Under the pieces are notes generated by a model. It had not been told where the DNA came from, did not search any database, and was given only the letters and a program-made list of their open reading frames with translations. The position numbers and the translations under genes were made by a program. Shown here piece after piece: positions 19,709-33,700 of a DNA stretch of 64,000 nucleotides. How positions within the stretch are numbered: the first letter of the stretch is position 1; each line of letters begins with the position of its first letter. The stretch covers positions 1,612,001-1,676,000 of the forward strand of contig NZ_CP071796.1 of the NCBI RefSeq assembly GCF_017498525.1, read 5' to 3'. Origin of the DNA: Ottowia testudinis. GTDB taxonomy: Bacteria; Pseudomonadota; Gammaproteobacteria; Burkholderiales; Burkholderiaceae_C.

Positions 19709-21565
19709 ATGCAGGTTGCACACTTTGCTCCACACGGCTGTGATGTTTCGGATGAATTTGCTGTGCAGGCACGAGCGTCCTCGCATCAGCGCAGCATGCA
19801 GCGAACCGTGCAAGCGCTGTTTCGCGAGAAATTGCTGAGCCATGACCAACTGGTCGTTGAAGGCACCAGCGCATGGCTGCCCCTGTGGCGGTGCCAAAAA
19901 CTTCTGCGTCTGGAGGGCTTGCACATCGGGGCCGCGGGCAACTGCCAGTTGCACGGCCCGGTGGTGTGCTACCTCAACGGCCGCCAGTGTTGCAAGCTCA
20001 ATTCATCCGCGGAGTTGCTGGCCCATGTTCTGCACCAGCAGGACGGCCTGGACAGCGACGATTTACAGCGGTTGTTGCTAGAGGTGGCCAACAGCGCTGA
20101 AAACGATGCGCTGTGCCTTTCTTATCGACACGGTTGGGCAAAACGCTTGCGCGCGCAACATGGCGCAGACGCGCAGAACAACTTCGTGGCGGCGCTGCAC
20201 CGGTCGACGCTGGAGAACCCGGTCTTGTTGCTGGAGCAATGGGGCGCGTTGGGGCACCCGTGGCATCCCAACTACAAGACCAAGCTGGGATTGCGCGCGG
20301 ACCAGGTCATGGCGCTATCGCCCGAGTTTGAAGCCTGCATACAGGTGCCCTGTGCCGCAATCCACGCCGATGCGGCCCATGTGACCAGTTGCGATGCTCA
20401 GGTTGATTACCGGCATTGGTTTGCTGCGGCTTACCCGGCCACTTGGCAAGAGTGGGCGCGGGCGCTCGAGGCGCGCGGCGAGCGCGTGGCGTGCTGGCTG
20501 CCGTTGCCCTTGCATCCGTATCAAGCCGAGCAGGTGGTGGCAGAGCGATTCGCAGATGAGCTGCGCGCCCGAAAGCTCTTGTTGCTGAACGGCGTGGTCA
20601 TTGATGCGCGGCCCTCGATGTCGTTTCGTACGGTGGTGCCGCAGGGGGCGGCCAACTTGCCGCACATGAAGCTCCCGGTGTCCCTGCGCCTGACGAGCGT
20701 GGAGCGCACCGTGTCGCCCAAATCGGTGGTGATGGGCCCGCGCCTGACCACGCTGCTGCGCCAAATCATGGCGCGCGAAAACGGCTTCGACGGCCGCTTG
20801 GCGATCCTCGGAGAAGAAGTTGGCCTGCATTACCTCGATCCGCAAGGCAACGACGACAGGGCGCGACATCTGTCTGTGCTGTATCGAACCAATCCGATGG
20901 TCTACAGGACGGCAGAACGACTTCCGGTCCCTGTGGGGGCCTTGTTTGCCGAGTCGCCACTGCACGGCCGGCCGCTGGTGACCGATCTGGTGGCCAGCGC
21001 CCATGGAGATCACGCATCCGGCGCGGAAGCATTTTTCAGTGCCTATCTCGCCGCGGTGTTGCCGGCGGTGCTGGGGCCGTATCTGCTGTACGGCATCGCG
21101 TTCGAGGCGCACCAGCAAAACAGCTTGGTGATACTGGATGGACGACTGCGGCCGGTGCAACTGCTGGTACGTGATTTTGGGGATCTGCGCATCCATGCGC
21201 CCACGCTGCGGCAGAGCGGCCACGCACTTCAGGCGTACAGCGCCACGCATACGCTGTTCGAATCCGATGCCGAGGCGCGAGACAAGTTGATTCACGCCTT
21301 CATGCTTTGCCACCTGACGGAGTTGGCATTGCTGCTGGCGCGTACCTATGCACGGCCGGAAGGCGCGTTCATGCAACTCATGCGCCAGCAGGTGCAGGCA
21401 GTGTTCACGCATCTGCGCTCGCGCACCGATCCGGTGCGCTGGCACCGCGAGCACGAAGCCTTGCTCGAGAGCGATTGGCCGGCCAAGTCGTTCATACGCA
21501 TGCGTCTTTGCAACGCGTCGGACGACATCGTGCTGCGCATGCCCAATCCATTGAAATTCACTTGA
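19709..21565 (+). CDS. NRPS-independent siderophore (NIS) synthetase, IucA/IucC family
   Basis: A 618-residue ATP-dependent ligase that condenses citrate or a similar carboxylate with an amine or alcohol to build a siderophore. Family motifs: GHPWHPNYKTKLGL (residues 182-195) binds ATP/carboxylate; LPLHPYQAEQV, KLPVSLRLTSVERT and FEAHQQNSLV...LLVRDFGDLRI complete the active site; the IucC-like C-terminal FhuF-type half follows. ATG 19709 has GAAGG upstream; the longer reading frame would cross the Fur box. It is the only biosynthetic enzyme here and is followed immediately by an exporter and a receptor, resembling rhizoferrin-type loci (Francisella FslA, Legionella LbtA). The product is inferred, not shown. 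Confidence 0.9.
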   Translation: MQVAHFAPHGCDVSDEFAVQARASSHQRSMQRTVQALFREKLLSHDQLVVEGTSAWLPLWRCQKLLRLEGLHIGAAGNCQLHGPVVCYLNGRQCCKLNSSAELLAHVLHQQDGLDSDDLQRLLLEVANSAENDALCLSYRHGWAKRLRAQHGADAQNNFVAALHRSTLENPVLLLEQWGALGHPWHPNYKTKLGLRADQVMALSPEFEACIQVPCAAIHADAAHVTSCDAQVDYRHWFAAAYPATWQEWARALEARGERVACWLPLPLHPYQAEQVVAERFADELRARKLLLLNGVVIDARPSMSFRTVVPQGAANLPHMKLPVSLRLTSVERTVSPKSVVMGPRLTTLLRQIMARENGFDGRLAILGEEVGLHYLDPQGNDDRARHLSVLYRTNPMVYRTAERLPVPVGALFAESPLHGRPLVTDLVASAHGDHASGAEAFFSAYLAAVLPAVLGPYLLYGIAFEAHQQNSLVILDGRLRPVQLLVRDFGDLRIHAPTLRQSGHALQAYSATHTLFESDAEARDKLIHAFMLCHLTELALLLARTYARPEGAFMQLMRQQVQAVFTHLRSRTDPVRWHREHEALLESDWPAKSFIRMRLCNASDDIVLRMPNPLKFT

Positions 21566-27949: not shown

Positions 27950-28938
27950 TGGCGGCGGGCAGTGGCGAGGGTGTTGCCGTGTCATCGCCGACGCGGCAAG
28001 AACTCATGCCTTTCGTATCTGCGCTCGTGCGCACACGGCGCCTGGCGTTGCTGGTCATGGCGCTGCATTTGCTTTGGTGGACGCTGTGGCTGGCGGGCGC
28101 GCCCCTCGGCGTCAAAGCTTCGATGGCGCTTTGGGTCGTCTGGGGATTGGCGGGCTGGCTGGGTTGGCTGATGCTGGGAAGCAAGTCGGATGCCGCGAGG
28201 ACGTCGGCTAAACGGCTTCTGCTAACGGTGGCCGTGTGGGTGCCGGGCGTGTCCTTGGTGGCTGCAGCGTTGTTCCGTGTCATTACGCGTCCGGAAGAGC
28301 GGCTGCTGGATCATCTCGATTTGGAGCCGACATTCTGGGGAGTGAGAACCAAGCTGGAGCCCTCCCCAGTGCGCCGCCAAGCCGACATGCAGACGTTGAA
28401 CGCCATGGCGCAGCGGCTGCATGCTGCCGCGCGCGAACACGCCGCAGCCATCAGCCCACTGCGTCCGTGGGCCACCACGTGGATCGATGGCGATCCGGTG
28501 CAGAGCCGCGACGCGCACTCGTTCCTGGTCGAAACTGTCGAAGCACTGCCTTGCGCCCAGCACCTGCAGGGCGAACTGCACTTGGGCTACCGCGTGTTTG
28601 CCGGCTATGCCGATCCGGATGATGAGGGCAAGACCGAGATCGTGGTGATGCGTGGCACCACTGCGATGGACCCGATCCGCTTTGCGCGTACCGACCCGGT
28701 CAATCAGGGCTTGTCCAACGACGATCTGGTGCGCCTCATGCTGCCGCTGCAAAAGCAGTACGGCTTCACCGTGGTGGCGGCCAACCTCGACAGCGTGGTG
28801 CTGAGATTCTTGAAGTTGCCTGATCCATTGGAACCGCTGGTAGCGGCGTTGCAAGTCATTTGTCCCGATGCCATGCACGACTGGCCCTTGGTGCGCCAGT
28901 TGAAGGACGAAGGTACGGTGCGTCTTTGGTGGGATTGA
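27949..28938 (+). CDS. Membrane-anchored protein of unknown function, coupled to polA
   Basis: A 329-residue protein I do not recognise. The N-terminal part has three likely helices (LALLVMALHLLWWTLWLAGA, SMALWVVWGLAGWLGWLML, LLLTVAVWVPGVSLVAAALF). A cytoplasmic or periplasmic domain of about 220 residues follows, with the segments EERLLDHLDLEPTFWGVRTK, ATTWIDGDPVQSRDAHSFLV, ELHLGYRVFAGYADPDDEGK, VVMRGTTAMDPIRFARTDPV and a Trp-rich end VRLWWD. The ATG shares one base with the polA TGA, so translation is probably coupled. Base composition is slightly less GC-rich than polA. No catalytic motif is evident; an immunity or envelope role is only speculation. Confidence 0.7.
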   Translation: MAAGSGEGVAVSSPTRQELMPFVSALVRTRRLALLVMALHLLWWTLWLAGAPLGVKASMALWVVWGLAGWLGWLMLGSKSDAARTSAKRLLLTVAVWVPGVSLVAAALFRVITRPEERLLDHLDLEPTFWGVRTKLEPSPVRRQADMQTLNAMAQRLHAAAREHAAAISPLRPWATTWIDGDPVQSRDAHSFLVETVEALPCAQHLQGELHLGYRVFAGYADPDDEGKTEIVVMRGTTAMDPIRFARTDPVNQGLSNDDLVRLMLPLQKQYGFTVVAANLDSVVLRFLKLPDPLEPLVAALQVICPDAMHDWPLVRQLKDEGTVRLWWD

Positions 28939-29120
28939 GGGCGTCTCTGCGGGACATGATCGCATCGCACGCTGCGCCACTCGTGGGGCCAAGCTTGTGT
29001 CGGCGCGACATCCCGCCGGGTTTCGACCGGCTGCAAGGCTGGCTGCTGCCCTGGCTCACGCCCGCGCATGCAGCTGGCGAATGGGTATCCGCTGGCGGGC
29101 CTGGCTTCCCACAGCAGGCG

Positions 29121-29249
29121 CGCAGCCTGTCGCTCTACGACGCCCTCATCGTAGCCGCCGCGCTCGACAGCGCCTGCACCACGCTGTACAGCGAAGACTT
29201 GAACGACGGCGAAACGGTGCGCGGGCTGCGCATCATCAACCCGTTTTAG
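29121..29249 (+). pseudogene. Orphan C-terminal fragment of a PIN-domain (VapC) toxin
   Basis: The last 42 codons before the stop at 29247-29249 read SLYDALIVAAALDSACTTLY followed by SEDLNDGETVRGLRIINPF. This is the conserved C-terminal quarter of VapC toxins, carrying the last PIN acidic residues. No N-terminal PIN motif (xDTNxL) or antitoxin gene is found upstream in 28939-29120, so this is a remnant. It is unrelated to the intact pair at 49.7-50.4 kb. Confidence 0.75.
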
Positions 29250-29719
29250 CCCCATGCCGGCTTGTTCACCATCAACCAGTACACCGCCAGCATGGCGATG
29301 AAGGCCGGGTAGCCCAGCCACTCCCACGCGCGCTGCATGCGGGCGTAGGCGGCGGGCAGCGGCGCGCCGTGCGTGGCGGCCGACTGTGCCAAGCGTGCCA
29401 TGCGCATTTGCACCACCACCACCGGCAGCCAGCAGGCGCCGGCCAGCGCGTACAGCGCGATCGACAGCGCCAGCCACGGCGTGGTGAGCGGCCAGCCGGC
29501 CAAGTGCGCCATCCACACGCCGGTGAGCGGCTGCACGATGACGGCGGGCGTGGTGAACCAGGTGTCGGCGCGCACCACCAGCCGGCCGACCACGGCCTGC
29601 GCCGCCACGCTGCCGCTGCGGTTGGCAAAGAACATATAGAACGCCGAGCCAAAGCCGGTGCCCACCATCAGCACGCTGCTCAGGATGTGAATCCACTTCA
29701 GGACGAGGTAGGTGTTCAT
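29246..29719 (-). CDS. DUF2269 family integral membrane protein
   Basis: A 157-residue protein with four predicted helices and the DUF2269 pattern: LVLKWIHILSSVLMVGTGFG at the start, RADTWFTTPAVIVQPLTGVW, and a C-terminal AFIAMLAVYWLMVNKP. The function of the family is unknown; a conserved His in the first helix (WIHILS) recalls haem-binding or redox membrane proteins, but that is conjecture. Its ATG overlaps the stop of the DoxX-like gene as ATGA. It is the last gene of the six-gene minus-strand cluster, and its stop overlaps the end of the vapC remnant on the other strand. Confidence 0.8.
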   Translation of the reverse strand: MNTYLVLKWIHILSSVLMVGTGFGSAFYMFFANRSGSVAAQAVVGRLVVRADTWFTTPAVIVQPLTGVWMAHLAGWPLTTPWLALSIALYALAGACWLPVVVVQMRMARLAQSAATHGAPLPAAYARMQRAWEWLGYPAFIAMLAVYWLMVNKPAWG

Positions 29720-30111
29720 TTTTCGGCCCCCCACAACAGCCACAGCGCGGCCAGGATCGGCAGGTTTTTGCTGAGTGGGCCGAGCGGATGCAGCCACAGC
29801 GCGGGCAGCAGCGCGCTGGCGATGGCCGTCATCACCAGCACGGCCGCGCCCGCGGTCGCCAGCACCGCACGGCGCGGGCAGCGCCACAGGGCCAGGCCCA
29901 GCACAGCGTCCAGCGTGGCCCCGCCCAGGATCAGGGCTTGCGCCAGCGCCGGCGATGCCACGCCGCCGGCTTGCAGCAACTGCGCGCTTTGGCCGTGGCG
30001 TTCGACGACGCTCACCACCGCCGTCCACAGCCAGACGGCCACCAGGCTGTGGCGCAGCAGGCGCAGATCGGCGGTGGGTGCCGTTGTGGCTCTGAAGCGA
30101 TGTGGTTTCAT
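29716..30111 (-). CDS. DoxX-like family membrane protein
   Basis: A 131-residue protein with four helices (LVAVWLWTAVVSVVERHGQS, ALILGGATLDAVLGLALW, VLATAGAAVLVMTAIASALL, KNLPILAALWLLWGA), matching DoxX-like/DUF4149-size proteins found with NAD(P)-binding epimerase-like partners. In several bacteria a DoxX-like domain is fused to or follows such a partner, as here. ATG 30111 lies within the AT-rich edge of a family A repeat, so the repeat separates it from the upstream gene and may influence its expression. It overlaps DUF2269 by 4 bases. Confidence 0.7.
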   Translation of the reverse strand: MKPHRFRATTAPTADLRLLRHSLVAVWLWTAVVSVVERHGQSAQLLQAGGVASPALAQALILGGATLDAVLGLALWRCPRRAVLATAGAAVLVMTAIASALLPALWLHPLGPLSKNLPILAALWLLWGAEK

Positions 30112-30168
30112 TTGCTACACAATCAATAGCTGCTTGCGCTTGTTGCACAGGGTCTAGAGCACGATTTC
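30111..30168 (+). repeat. Family A element, copy 8
   Basis: tttgctacacaatcaatAGCTGCTT, then GCGCTTGTTGCACAGGG; the right arm AAGCGC is lost. It provides the stop codon (CTA at 30154-30156, read on the minus strand) and last codons of the NAD(P)-binding protein gene and abuts the start of the DoxX-like gene. Confidence 0.75.
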
Positions 30169-31044
30169 ATGCTGATTCAGTGCTGGCGTCACGTGCAGCA
30201 ATTCGTCCGGCGGCGTGGGCGCGCGGCCCAGCAGCGCTTGCAGCGCGGTGGAATCGGTCACGTTGTCTTGCGCCAGCAGCGCCAGTGTTTCGCTGCACCA
30301 TGGCACCACCGGCACCCTGTCGCCCAGCCGCACGCTGAGTGTGGTCAGCACGCCGGGCAGCGGCGCCACCCAAGCGCGCCGGTGGCCCAATTGCTGGCGC
30401 AGGCTGGCGATGAAGGCGGCCAGCGTCAGCGCCTGTGCGCCGCCCAGCTCGATCAGGCCGGTGGGCGCTCGACGCGACACCAGGCGGGCCACCGCTTCGG
30501 CCAACTCGCCCACGGCCAGCGGCTGCACCTGGGCGCGTTGCACCGGGCGCGGCAGCAGCAGGGCGGGGCAGCGCGCCAGCCGCATGAACAGTTCGCTGCT
30601 GTCGCCGCCCCGGCCAAACACGATGCTGGGGCGCAGCACCACGCCGTCAAGCTGGCCGGCCTGCGTCAACGCCAGCAGGTGCGCGTCGGCGGCCTGCTTG
30701 CTGCGCGCATACAGCGTGGGGTTGCCGTCAATGCCCAGTGCCGAGACGTGCACCACGCGCCGCACGCCCGCTTGCGCGCAGGCGTCGAACAGGGCGCGCG
30801 GCGCGGCGTCGTGCACGGCGGCCATGGGCTGGCGGCGGGTGTTGCGCAGCACACCGACGGCGTTGATCACCGCGTCCTGGCCGGCCAGGTGCGGCAGCCA
30901 GTCGCGCACATGCAACGCGCGGCTGAAATCCAGCGCGGGTGCGCCGCGCCGGCTGGGGGCGTGCACCTGGTGGCCAGCGGCCCGCAGCGCAGCGTGGATG
31001 TGGCGCCCGATGAAGCCGGTGGCGCCGCACAGCAGGATGTTCAT
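30154..31044 (-). CDS. NAD(P)-binding atypical SDR/epimerase-like protein
   Basis: A 296-residue Rossmann-fold protein. The N-terminal nucleotide-binding motif is LLCGATGFIGRHIHAAL; an active-site-like YARSKQAAD (YxxxK) follows HVSALGIDGNPTL, typical of atypical short-chain dehydrogenases of the NDUFA9/complex I assembly type. The C-terminal 100 residues (ELGGAQALTLAAFIASLRQQ onward) resemble the substrate-binding part. ATG 31044 has AAAGGAG upstream. It lies 31 bases after the DCC gene and precedes the DoxX-like gene in the same cluster. The C-terminal residues HEIVL come from a family A repeat and may replace the original end. Confidence 0.82.
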   Translation of the reverse strand: MNILLCGATGFIGRHIHAALRAAGHQVHAPSRRGAPALDFSRALHVRDWLPHLAGQDAVINAVGVLRNTRRQPMAAVHDAAPRALFDACAQAGVRRVVHVSALGIDGNPTLYARSKQAADAHLLALTQAGQLDGVVLRPSIVFGRGGDSSELFMRLARCPALLLPRPVQRAQVQPLAVGELAEAVARLVSRRAPTGLIELGGAQALTLAAFIASLRQQLGHRRAWVAPLPGVLTTLSVRLGDRVPVVPWCSETLALLAQDNVTDSTALQALLGRAPTPPDELLHVTPALNQHEIVL

Positions 31045-31075: not shown

Positions 31076-31534
31076 TCAGCGGCGCTCGACGGAGCAGCCG
31101 CTGGCCGCATCGCACCGGCACGACGCGGCTTGCGTGGCGGCGCGGCGCAGCGCCCGGCCGAAGATTAGTTGCACCAGCGGGCGTGGCAGGCGCTGGCGAT
31201 GGCGGGCGATCACGGGGTACAGCGCGTTGAGCAGCGGCCGCAGCACGGGCGCCCGCAATGCCGTCGACACAGTCGTGAGGCCCACCGCCTCGTAAGCCAG
31301 CTCGAATGCAGGCACGCCCCGCAGCAGGCGCCCATCGGCGGTGCGGGCGTGCATCAGCGTCATCAGCTCGGCCACCGTGGCGCCCGCCAGCGCGGCATCG
31401 AAGCCCGGCGCCGACGCATCGACAAAGCGCAGGCGGCCCGCCGCATCGCGCAAGCGCAGGTTCTCCATCTCGGCGGCGCACAGCGGGCAGGAGGCGTCGA
31501 AGTACAGCGTCAGGGGATAGTGGCTCGGGTTCAT
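31076..31534 (-). CDS. DCC family thiol-disulfide oxidoreductase (DUF393)
   Basis: A 152-residue protein opening with LTLYFDASCPLCAAEMENLR, the DxxCxxC hallmark of the DCC family (CPLC redox pair), followed by FVDASAPGF and GVPAFELAYEAVGLTTV. Members are predicted thioredoxin-like oxidoreductases, often near membrane or photoprotection genes. A C-terminal CRCDAASGCSVERR adds three more cysteines, unusual and possibly metal-binding. ATG at 31534. A 20-bp operator, nearly identical to one in front of the regulator gene, lies 22-41 bases upstream. The NAD(P)-binding gene follows after 31 bases. Confidence 0.85.
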   Translation of the reverse strand: MNPSHYPLTLYFDASCPLCAAEMENLRLRDAAGRLRFVDASAPGFDAALAGATVAELMTLMHARTADGRLLRGVPAFELAYEAVGLTTVSTALRAPVLRPLLNALYPVIARHRQRLPRPLVQLIFGRALRRAATQAASCRCDAASGCSVERR

Positions 31535-31555
31535 TGTGCGCCTTTCATAAAAGAT

Positions 31556-31575
31556 ATTTCTGTAAAAAAAGAAAT
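31556..31575. promoter_or_regulatory. Operator upstream of the DCC gene (site 2 of the GbsR-type regulator)
   Basis: ATTTCTGTAAAAAAAGAAAT: arms ATTTCT/AGAAAT with an 8-base centre. It is 18 of 20 identical, in the same orientation, to the site overlapping the regulator promoter at 32594-32613. It lies in an AT-rich gap between the SRPBCC and DCC genes, where an internal promoter is likely. Confidence 0.7.
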
Positions 31576-31581
31576 TAATGC

Positions 31582-32034
31582 TCAAAAAAAGGGTTGACTG
31601 TTTTCGGCCAAGGCTTTGAGCGCGGCTAGGCGACGACGCGATTGGCGCGTGATCACGGCCTGCACCCACGGGCCCAACCAGCGCGCGACCAGGGGATGAA
31701 GCCGCACGCTGTAGATGAATTTGGCCCGGCAGCGCTGTGCCCCCAAAGGCACAAAGCGCCAGGTGCCGGCCGCCCTGTGCAGCCACCACGGGCCTCGAAC
31801 CATTCGAAAAGCGGCCACGGATGGGCGCTGCCAACTGACGTACGCCACGTCCAGGCGAAAGCCGTAGACCGTGGGGCAGCGAACGATGGCGCCAGGCATG
31901 GCTTGCGGCGCAGTTTGCACGAGGCAAGCGGTGGGTGTGAGCGTGTCCCAGCGGCGGCGCAGGGCATAGTCTTGTGAGAGGTCGAACACCGCTTCGGCGC
32001 TGCGGTCGATCAGGATGTGGGCTTGGCTGCGCAT
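31582..32034 (-). CDS. SRPBCC family protein (polyketide cyclase/START-like fold)
   Basis: A 150-residue protein with the SRPBCC (Bet v1-like) pattern: an opening strand with HILIDRSAEAVFDLSQDYAL, followed by WDTLTPTACLV, a central beta-sheet (GFRLDVAYVSWQRPSVAAFR) and a long amphipathic C-terminal helix (ARWLGPWVQAVITRQSRRRL). Such proteins bind hydrophobic ligands. ATG 32034 follows AAGGCG. It starts 15 bases after the regulator gene stop and is surely cotranscribed with it; the second operator lies directly beyond its 3' end. Confidence 0.8.
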   Translation of the reverse strand: MRSQAHILIDRSAEAVFDLSQDYALRRRWDTLTPTACLVQTAPQAMPGAIVRCPTVYGFRLDVAYVSWQRPSVAAFRMVRGPWWLHRAAGTWRFVPLGAQRCRAKFIYSVRLHPLVARWLGPWVQAVITRQSRRRLAALKALAENSQPFF

Positions 32035-32049
32035 GGTTTTTTCGCCTTG

Positions 32050-32568
32050 TCAGCGCACCAGCCGCTGCACCGATGCGCCCAGTTTCAGCACCTTCTCCAG
32101 CGTGTTGGGCGACAGGCGCAGCATCTCGTCGGCCCAGGCGCCCAGCGACTCCATGAAACGCAGCGTTTCGCGCACGCGGTCTTGCGTGTCGGCGGCTTCG
32201 CGCTCGAAATCGGGGCCTGCCACCAGCTCGCGCAGCAGGCGCGTGGTGGGATCGAACTCGCGCTCCTTGCGCTCGCGCACGATGGTGCGAAACAGCTCCC
32301 ACACGTCGCTCGACGTCTCGAAGTAATCGCGCCGGTCGCCCAGCACATGGGTCACCCGCACCAAGCCCCAGTTCTGCAACTCTTTCAGACTGTTGCTGAC
32401 GTTGGAGCGGGCCACACTCAAGGTGTCGGCGATGTCCTCGGCATTCAGCGGGCGGCCGTGAAAGTAGAGCAGGGCGTGAATCTGCGACACGGTGCGGTTG
32501 ACGCCCCAGGCTGAACCCATCTCGCCCCAGTGGACGATGAAGCGGCGGGCGGTATCGGTGAGTTGCAT
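32050..32568 (-). CDS. GbsR/MarR family transcriptional regulator
   Basis: A 172-residue winged-helix regulator. The helix-turn-helix region is VSQIHALLYFHGRPLNAEDI followed by ADTLSVARSNVSNSLKELQNWG, and the wing is LVRVTHVLGDRRDYFE, all typical of GbsR-like MarR-superfamily proteins; a helical dimerisation part follows. ATG 32568 is chosen because a consensus promoter places a -10 box 6 bases before it, implying a leaderless mRNA; ATGs at 32586, 32595 and 32604 are in frame but would begin inside the promoter. An operator centred on the -35 box predicts autoregulation. It heads the six-gene cluster and is the obvious controller of both sites. Confidence 0.87.
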   Translation of the reverse strand: MQLTDTARRFIVHWGEMGSAWGVNRTVSQIHALLYFHGRPLNAEDIADTLSVARSNVSNSLKELQNWGLVRVTHVLGDRRDYFETSSDVWELFRTIVRERKEREFDPTTRLLRELVAGPDFEREAADTQDRVRETLRFMESLGAWADEMLRLSPNTLEKVLKLGASVQRLVR

Positions 32569-32574
32569 GGCGCG

Positions 32575-32604
32575 ATTATTCGTCATACCTGACATTTCTG
32601 TCAA
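32575..32604 (-). promoter_or_regulatory. Promoter of the GbsR-type regulator gene
   Basis: On the minus strand: TTGACA (32604-32599), 18 bases, AATAAT (32580-32575), then 6 bases to the ATG at 32568. This is the best sigma70 promoter in the window. Confidence 0.75.
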
Positions 32605-32613
32605 TAAAGAAAT
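32594..32613. promoter_or_regulatory. Operator overlapping the -35 box of the regulator gene (site 1)
   Basis: ATTTCTGTCAATAAAGAAAT: arms ATTTCT/AGAAAT, 8-base centre. The -35 hexamer TTGACA of the minus-strand promoter lies within it, so binding should block RNA polymerase. Two mismatches to the site at 31556-31575, both in the centre. Confidence 0.75.
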
Positions 32614-32677
32614 ATTGCGGCATGAAAAAGCCGATGGGCTTGCGCGGCATCGGCTTGGGGCAGGCGGTGCGGCGCGT

Positions 32678-33700
32678 TCAGCTGGCTGCGTTGGCGTGCT
32701 CTCGGTGGTACTGCGTCACCCGCTCCACCTCGTTCTTGCTGCCCAGAATCACGCTGACGCGCTCGTGCAGTTGGGTCGGTTGCACTTCGAGAATGCGCTG
32801 GTGGCCGTTGGTGGCGGCGCCGCCGGCTTGCTCGATGAGCCAGCCCATGGGGTTGGCCTCGTACATCAGGCGCAGCTTGCCGGGCTTGTTCGGCTCGCGC
32901 TTGTCCCAGGGGTACATGAAGATGCCGCCGCGCGTCATGATGCGGTGCACGTCGGCCACCATGCTGGCCACCCAGCGCATGTTGAAGTCCTTGGCCCTAG
33001 GGCCGTCCTTGCCTTGCAGGCATTCGTCGATGTAGCGCTTGACCGGCGCGTCCCAGTGGCGCATGTTGCTCATGTTGATGGCGAATTCGCGCGTGTCGGG
33101 CGGGATCTGCACGTCGTCCTGCGTCAGCACGAAGCTGCCCATTTCGCGGTCGAGCGTGAACATGGCCACGCCATCGCCCACCGTCAACACCAGAATGGTT
33201 TGCGGGCCATACACGCAATAGCCGGCCGCGACCTGGCATTTGCCCGCTTGCAGAAAGTCGCTTTCTTCCACGCCACGGTCGCCCTCGGGCATTTTCAGCA
33301 CGCTGAAGATGGTGCCGATGCTGACGTTGACGTCGATGTTGCTGGAGCCGTCCAGCGGGTCGAACAGCAGTAGGTATTCGCCCTTGGGGTAGCGGTTAGG
33401 CACCAGGTAGATGCTGTCCATCTCCTCGCTGGCCATGGCCGCCAGGTGGCCGCCCCATTCGTTGGCCTCGATCAGCACCTCGTTGGCGATGATGTCGAGC
33501 TTTTTCTGCACCTCGCCCTGCACGTTTTCGCTGCCAGCGGTGCCCAGCACGCCGCCCAGGGCGCCCTTGTTGACGGCGTGGCTGACGCTTTTGCAGGCGC
33601 GCGCGACGACTTCCAGCAGCAGGCGCAATTGCGACGGGATGTGGCCGTCGATGCGTTGCTTTTCGACCAGATAGCGGGTGAGGGAGATGCGCTTGCTCAT
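32678..33700 (-). CDS. fbp: Class I fructose-1,6-bisphosphatase
   Basis: A 340-residue enzyme removing the 1-phosphate of fructose 1,6-bisphosphate in gluconeogenesis. The metal and substrate sites are seen in [32 protein letters not shown] and [20 protein letters not shown]. The start [19 protein letters not shown] is the usual one for beta-proteobacteria. Its ATG overlaps the stop of pepN by 4 bases (ATGA), so it is cotranscribed after aminopeptidase N. Confidence 0.96.

Follow-up and report, generated by a model that had tools for sequence, protein, structure and literature searches.

The closest described relatives of the regulator studied here are CydE of Alishewanella and CioR of Chromobacterium, GbsR-type proteins that repress their own genes as well as the cytochrome bd operons. 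Their operator is a palindrome of the form TTTCNG-N6-CNGAAA, and the DNase footprint of Alishewanella CydE is TATTTCAGAAATTTCTGAAAGTTCA (PMC6096048). A second group comprises the choline/betaine regulators GbsR, OpcR and OpuAR of Bacillus, which have a MarR-type fold with Mj223 as common template (1ku9 is the published modelling template for GbsR) and operators consisting of A/T-rich inverted repeats with a short spacer. In B. subtilis, OpcR exerts its repression by covering a -35 element, and GbsR acts as a roadblock (PMC7396694).

The window analysed here, a 64-kb stretch of the Ottowia testudinis genome, encodes a regulator with likenesses to both groups. It is GbsR-type and 44-50% identical to CydE and CioR, its operator has the same length and spacing as theirs, and CydE/CioR-type members occur in the same bacterial family. 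On the other hand, the half-site is TTTCTG in the window clade instead of TTTCAG, i.e. one base per half differs, the recognition helix reads xARSNxS(N/T) instead of xSR(S/G)N(V/T)SM, and the target is a DCC/epimerase/DoxX/DUF2269 operon instead of cytochrome bd. With the Bacillus proteins it shares the MarR-type fold, Mj223 as template, the short-spaced A/T-rich inverted repeat and, in the case of OpcR, a site that covers a -35, whereas the target genes differ; the window cluster (SRPBCC, DCC, epimerase, DoxX_3, DUF2269) holds no genes for betaine synthesis or osmoprotectant transport. No description of the regulon was found in open-licence literature on GbsR palindromes, DUF2269, DCC1-like/MarR, DoxX or RegPrecise Comamonadaceae. 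It is a real and apparently undescribed regulon, its regulator probably being a GbsR-type autorepressor of a familiar kind with new details.

A GbsR-type regulator and its gene cluster

All genes of the regulator unit and of the structural operon are located on the minus strand (Table 1). Most relatives have no SRPBCC gene between the regulator and the DCC gene; one is found there in the window clade and in relatives belonging to Vandammella/Allofranklinella, and in these loci the downstream palindrome (OP2, see below) and the T7G tract upstream of it stay with DCC. The presence of a thiol-disulfide oxidoreductase, an SDR protein and membrane proteins, together with a methyltransferase and a desaturase in relatives, hints at a role of the operon in membrane-lipid or redox maintenance.

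Table 1. Positions of the features in the window and, in the last row, in loci of relatives.
Feature	Position	Strand	Remarks
Probable intrinsic terminator of fructose-bisphosphatase-like gene	32623..32656	-	Hairpin followed by U5; -15.4 kcal/mol, z -2.05
OP1	32594..32613	-	Proposed operator over -35 of regulator promoter; right half and TTGACA near-invariant in 80 orthologous loci
Regulator promoter TTGACA-N18-AATAAT	32575..32604	-	-35 within OP1 and TAxACT-like -10 conserved in orthologues
GbsR-type MarR-fold regulator, 172 aa	32053..32568	-	Pfam, structure matches, AlphaFold2 model, tree
T7G tract	31583..31590	-	-15..-8 from OP2; overlaps SRPBCC stop codon
SRPBCC (Polyketide_cyc2)	31582..32034	-	Between regulator and OP2
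OP2	31556..31575	-	Proposed operator between SRPBCC and DCC; upstream of structural operon in orthologous loci
DCC1-like thiol-disulfide oxidoreductase	31076..31534	-	CPLC motif
NAD-dependent epimerase/SDR	30154..31044	-	
DoxX_3 membrane protein	29716..30111	-	
DUF2269 integral membrane protein	29246..29719	-	End of conserved cluster
Distant operator copies in relatives	L139 1994-2013; L140 2467-2486; L142 2438-2457; L143 2205-2224		Before desaturase, DUF2071, Kelch-repeat and SAM methyltransferase genes

The regulator matches Pfam MarR_2 with 42 bits (cut-off 27), and this match and the AlphaFold2 model (pLDDT 91) both place a MarR-like winged helix-turn-helix at its N-terminus. Weaker Pfam matches to CRP-, ArsR- and TrmB-like families were regarded as generic winged-helix similarity, and the model for the choline regulator CudC matched weakly and only in part (43.9 bits; cut-off 218). 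The solved structures nearest by sequence are Mj223 (1ku9) and Bcav_2135 (5jbr), with 23-24% identity to the regulator, and by fold these two are joined by 4nb5. For Mj223 the similarity extends over the overall fold, including the C-terminal helical region, and was seen both with the sequence (phmmer E 5e-14) and with the model (Foldseek E 9e-9; Z 13.5, rmsd 3.8 over 149 residues).

In the phylogenetic tree the window regulator and its orthologues (clade A) are separated from a sister clade (clade B) with support 100/100. In almost every clade B locus read, the regulator gene is followed by that for cytochrome bd subunit I (not seen behind L108), and this gene neighbourhood is the basis on which clade B is equated with CydE/CioR; the window regulator falls outside it. 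Since the window genome holds a clade A protein only, and no CydE/CioR-type paralogue, no cross-talk with clade B is expected here.

At the far end of the cluster, a short open reading frame (28860-29249, plus strand) runs convergently with DUF2269. Its last ~50 residues resemble the C-terminal part of a PIN-domain (VapC-type) toxin (SLYDALIVAAALDSACTTLYSEDLNDG...), and it is possibly a toxin remnant; as listed, it has no Pfam match.

Two conserved palindromes

The original prediction held that two 20-mers in the cluster agree at 18 of 20 bases, and both the positions and the agreement of the two copies (ATTTCTGTCAATAAAGAAAT for OP1 and ATTTCTGTAAAAAAAGAAAT for OP2) proved exact. Their centres are 1038 bp apart. 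The proposed division into arms of six bases flanking a centre of eight needed correction: comparison of 80 orthologous loci from named genomes, supplemented with loci from further relatives, revealed the full operator as the palindrome ATTTCTGT-N4-ACAGAAAT, i.e. with a symmetry of 8-4-8. Read on the minus strand, OP1 is ATTTCTTTATTGACAGAAAT and OP2 is ATTTCTTTTTTTACAGAAAT, and each combines one intact half, ACAGAAAT, with one half carrying a single change, ATTTCTTT; in OP1 it is the right half that is intact. This one-base wear affects the left half of both copies, and the 'same orientation' ascribed to them reflects that the right half is the better kept in both.

Nearly all orthologous loci have this palindrome, or a close variant of it, about 24 nt before the regulator ATG. 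When OP1 was compared over 80 distinct contexts, TTGACA and the right-half positions were 97-100% invariant, and the variation in the left half was confined mainly to one position, occupied by G, C or T.

No third copy exists in the window, as had been claimed, the next best match (at 19813) having three mismatches. Many unrelated occurrences genome-wide, which had been named beforehand as speaking against the prediction, were looked for by pattern search of the whole genome (4.32 Mb, one contig), and no further site within two mismatches of the corrected consensus was found. Seven sites have three mismatches. A first-order Markov model built on window statistics predicts 0.12 sites at up to two mismatches and 2 at up to three per 4.32 Mb.

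The regulator promoter and its upstream boundary

The claim that OP1 covers the TTGACA of the regulator promoter is supported by a promoter scan of the region 31400-32750, in which TTGACA-N18-AATAAT was the top match (11/12), and in the orthologues OP1 always overlies this TTGACA. The -10 hexamer AATAAT ends 6 nt before the regulator ATG in the window, and the TAxACT-like -10 of the orthologues ends about 7 nt before it, and because of this short distance the regulator mRNA is probably leaderless in the window and across the clade. A divergent plus-strand promoter at 32589-32616 was taken as a chance match, with no plus-strand gene apparent behind it.

Upstream, a hairpin followed by U5, missed by the consensus terminator scan, probably ends the transcript of the fructose-bisphosphatase-like gene, so that the regulator unit is likely insulated from it.

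OP2 and the structural operon

OP2 lies just before the DCC gene, as originally described, with 21 bases between its end and the ATG (A at 31534). Of 81 loci, the window included, 74 have an OP2 with up to three mismatches ahead of the next gene; six of the remaining seven have a degenerate OP2, and the seventh (L010) ends before that point. The scan at this threshold gave the impression that OP2 had been lost in SRPBCC-bearing relatives, which was rejected upon finding degenerate copies with the arms ATTTCA..TGAAAT. The gene behind OP2 is in most cases DCC (in loci lacking DCC, the epimerase), and the operon is usually DCC-epimerase-DoxX-DUF2269.

The end of the T7G tract lies 8 nt before OP2, a spacing that is fixed in relatives even where the preceding gene changes. 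The tract may serve the structural operon as a -35 (TTGnnn) or may be what is left of a terminator; a hairpin stands in front of it in only part of the relatives. The promoter scan found no sigma-70 consensus promoter around OP2 in the window; unlike OP1, OP2 overlies no recognisable -35, and a downstream -10 of the type seen at OP1 is missing. The supposed -10 of OP2 (AGAAAT or TGAAAT) is weak. Position 15 of OP2 carries T in 58% of contexts, which yields TGAAAT, although a perfect palindrome would need A.

Co-occurrence of palindrome and regulator

A clade A regulator is encoded in 60 of 301 sampled genomes of the family, about a fifth. At up to one mismatch, the palindrome occurs in 58 of these 60 genomes and in 4 of the 241 genomes without the regulator (Fisher p 1.4e-54, a value that overstates independence because the genomes are related, yet many genera are spanned). 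The exceptions are G208 and G291, which have the regulator and no site at this threshold, and four genomes with the reverse pattern. Within the genus, 8 of 9 genomes with the regulator and none of 20 without it have such sites. Conservation in place across many Burkholderiales genera, together with absence from nearly all genomes that lack the repressor, suggests a compact self-regulating circuit.

Additional sites were found in some relatives. One genome (G181) has a third perfect site before a SAM methyltransferase gene, and in the Variovorax operon the gene that follows DCC directly encodes a methyltransferase belonging to the same Pfam families. In another (G194) no DCC operon adjoins the regulator gene, yet OP1 is kept and there are three further sites at a distance: before a fatty-acid desaturase gene, before a gene for a DUF2071 protein, and about 90 bp upstream of a gene for a Kelch-repeat lipoprotein-like protein. 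The sites therefore follow the regulator rather than the operon. The regulon had been proposed to be self-contained, which agrees with the two sites of the present genome but not with relatives having extra sites; it comprises two sites here and is larger in some relatives.

Discussion

Sequence alone shows where the sites lie, that they are conserved and co-occur with the regulator, and which fold the regulator is predicted to have. From this we infer a circuit in which the GbsR-type MarR-fold repressor would bind directly, and as a dimer, to ATTTCTGT-N4-ACAGAAAT. At OP1 it would cover the -35 of its own promoter and thereby repress its own gene, and at OP2 it would repress the operon DCC-epimerase-DoxX-DUF2269. 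There it would either occlude the -10 end of a second promoter, the -35 of which lies in the T7G tract, or stop read-through transcription that starts at the regulator promoter. Some signal would presumably release OP1 and OP2 together. We assign a probability of roughly 0.87 to autorepression at OP1 combined with repression of the DCC operon at OP2 and joint release. The modes proposed for the two sites have precedent in OpcR, which represses from a site over a -35, and in GbsR, which acts as a roadblock (PMC7396694).

That the pair merely reflects chance or low-complexity A/T matches might be suspected from the A/T-rich centres of both operators. This was ruled out for practical purposes by the Markov estimate (0.004 sites at up to one mismatch expected per genome, against two found 1038 bp apart), by the genome search, and by the retention of the sites in the 80 orthologous loci. 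As direct binding by the regulator is a reading of the sequence, the palindromes could in principle belong to another, unlinked factor next to which the regulator stands incidentally. We consider this very improbable: the sites follow the regulator over the 301 genomes, the regulator of G194 keeps OP1 and further sites without the operon, and the footprint of the sister regulator has the same architecture. In clade B (L107-L116), TTTCAG-N6-CTGAAA-like palindromes occur upstream of the regulator gene, and their agreement with the CydE footprint, at one base per half from the clade A operator, supports direct binding by the clade A regulator. Some MarR proteins activate, and activation of one or both units would be compatible with the sequence. 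It is nevertheless improbable, if somewhat less so than an unlinked factor, since a dimer bound at OP1 would sit directly on the -35 hexamer and keep the polymerase away, and since GbsR, OpcR, OpuAR, CydE and CioR are repressors in the literature on characterised GbsR-type proteins.

A more serious question concerns OP2, which may be a roadblock site in one long transcript from the regulator promoter, with no promoter of its own. B. subtilis GbsR works in this manner at gbsAB and opuB (PMC7396694), no consensus promoter was detected near OP2 in the window, and the genes are co-directional with short spacing. However, the end of OP2 is only 7 nt from the ATG in some relatives (L040, L060 and L068), the T7G tract keeps its distance to OP2 despite the SRPBCC insertion and looks like a promoter element, and the hairpin and T tract between regulator and OP2 in some relatives would stop read-through. 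A roadblock seems less likely but is a serious alternative; the favoured reading is a promoter whose -35 (TTGnnn) lies in the T7G tract and whose weak -10 falls within the right half of OP2.

In a wider perspective, there is a slightly better than even chance that clade A constitutes a third functional GbsR branch, widespread in Burkholderiales and controlling membrane-lipid/redox genes, which diverged from CydE/CioR by one base per operator half with matching changes in the recognition helix (in most members ARSNVS(N/T)S in clade A vs SRSNVSMG in clade B). Its targets would be DCC oxidoreductase, SDR, DoxX and DUF2269 genes and elsewhere genes for SAM methyltransferase, fatty-acid desaturase, DUF2071 and DUF4166. 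An uncharacterised regulator clade is given a precise operator and a target set, and genes of unknown function (DCC, DUF2269, DoxX_3, DUF2071 and DUF4166) are tied together. The comparison with CydE/CioR also offers a natural case of specificity change in MarR-type repressors, and a clean one, since one operator base per half and a few residues of the recognition helix set clade A apart from a paralogue whose relative has been footprinted. OP1 of clade A has TTTCTG half-sites and not the TTTCAG-N6-CTGAAA arrangement, while OP2 of some relatives contains one mixed half (ACTGAAAT).

Outside the palindrome, a C three bases after the right half is conserved and common to OP1 and OP2. In the orthologues a wTC(n)(G/A)A flank is conserved at +1 to +6 downstream of both sites, and it could represent a third half-site.
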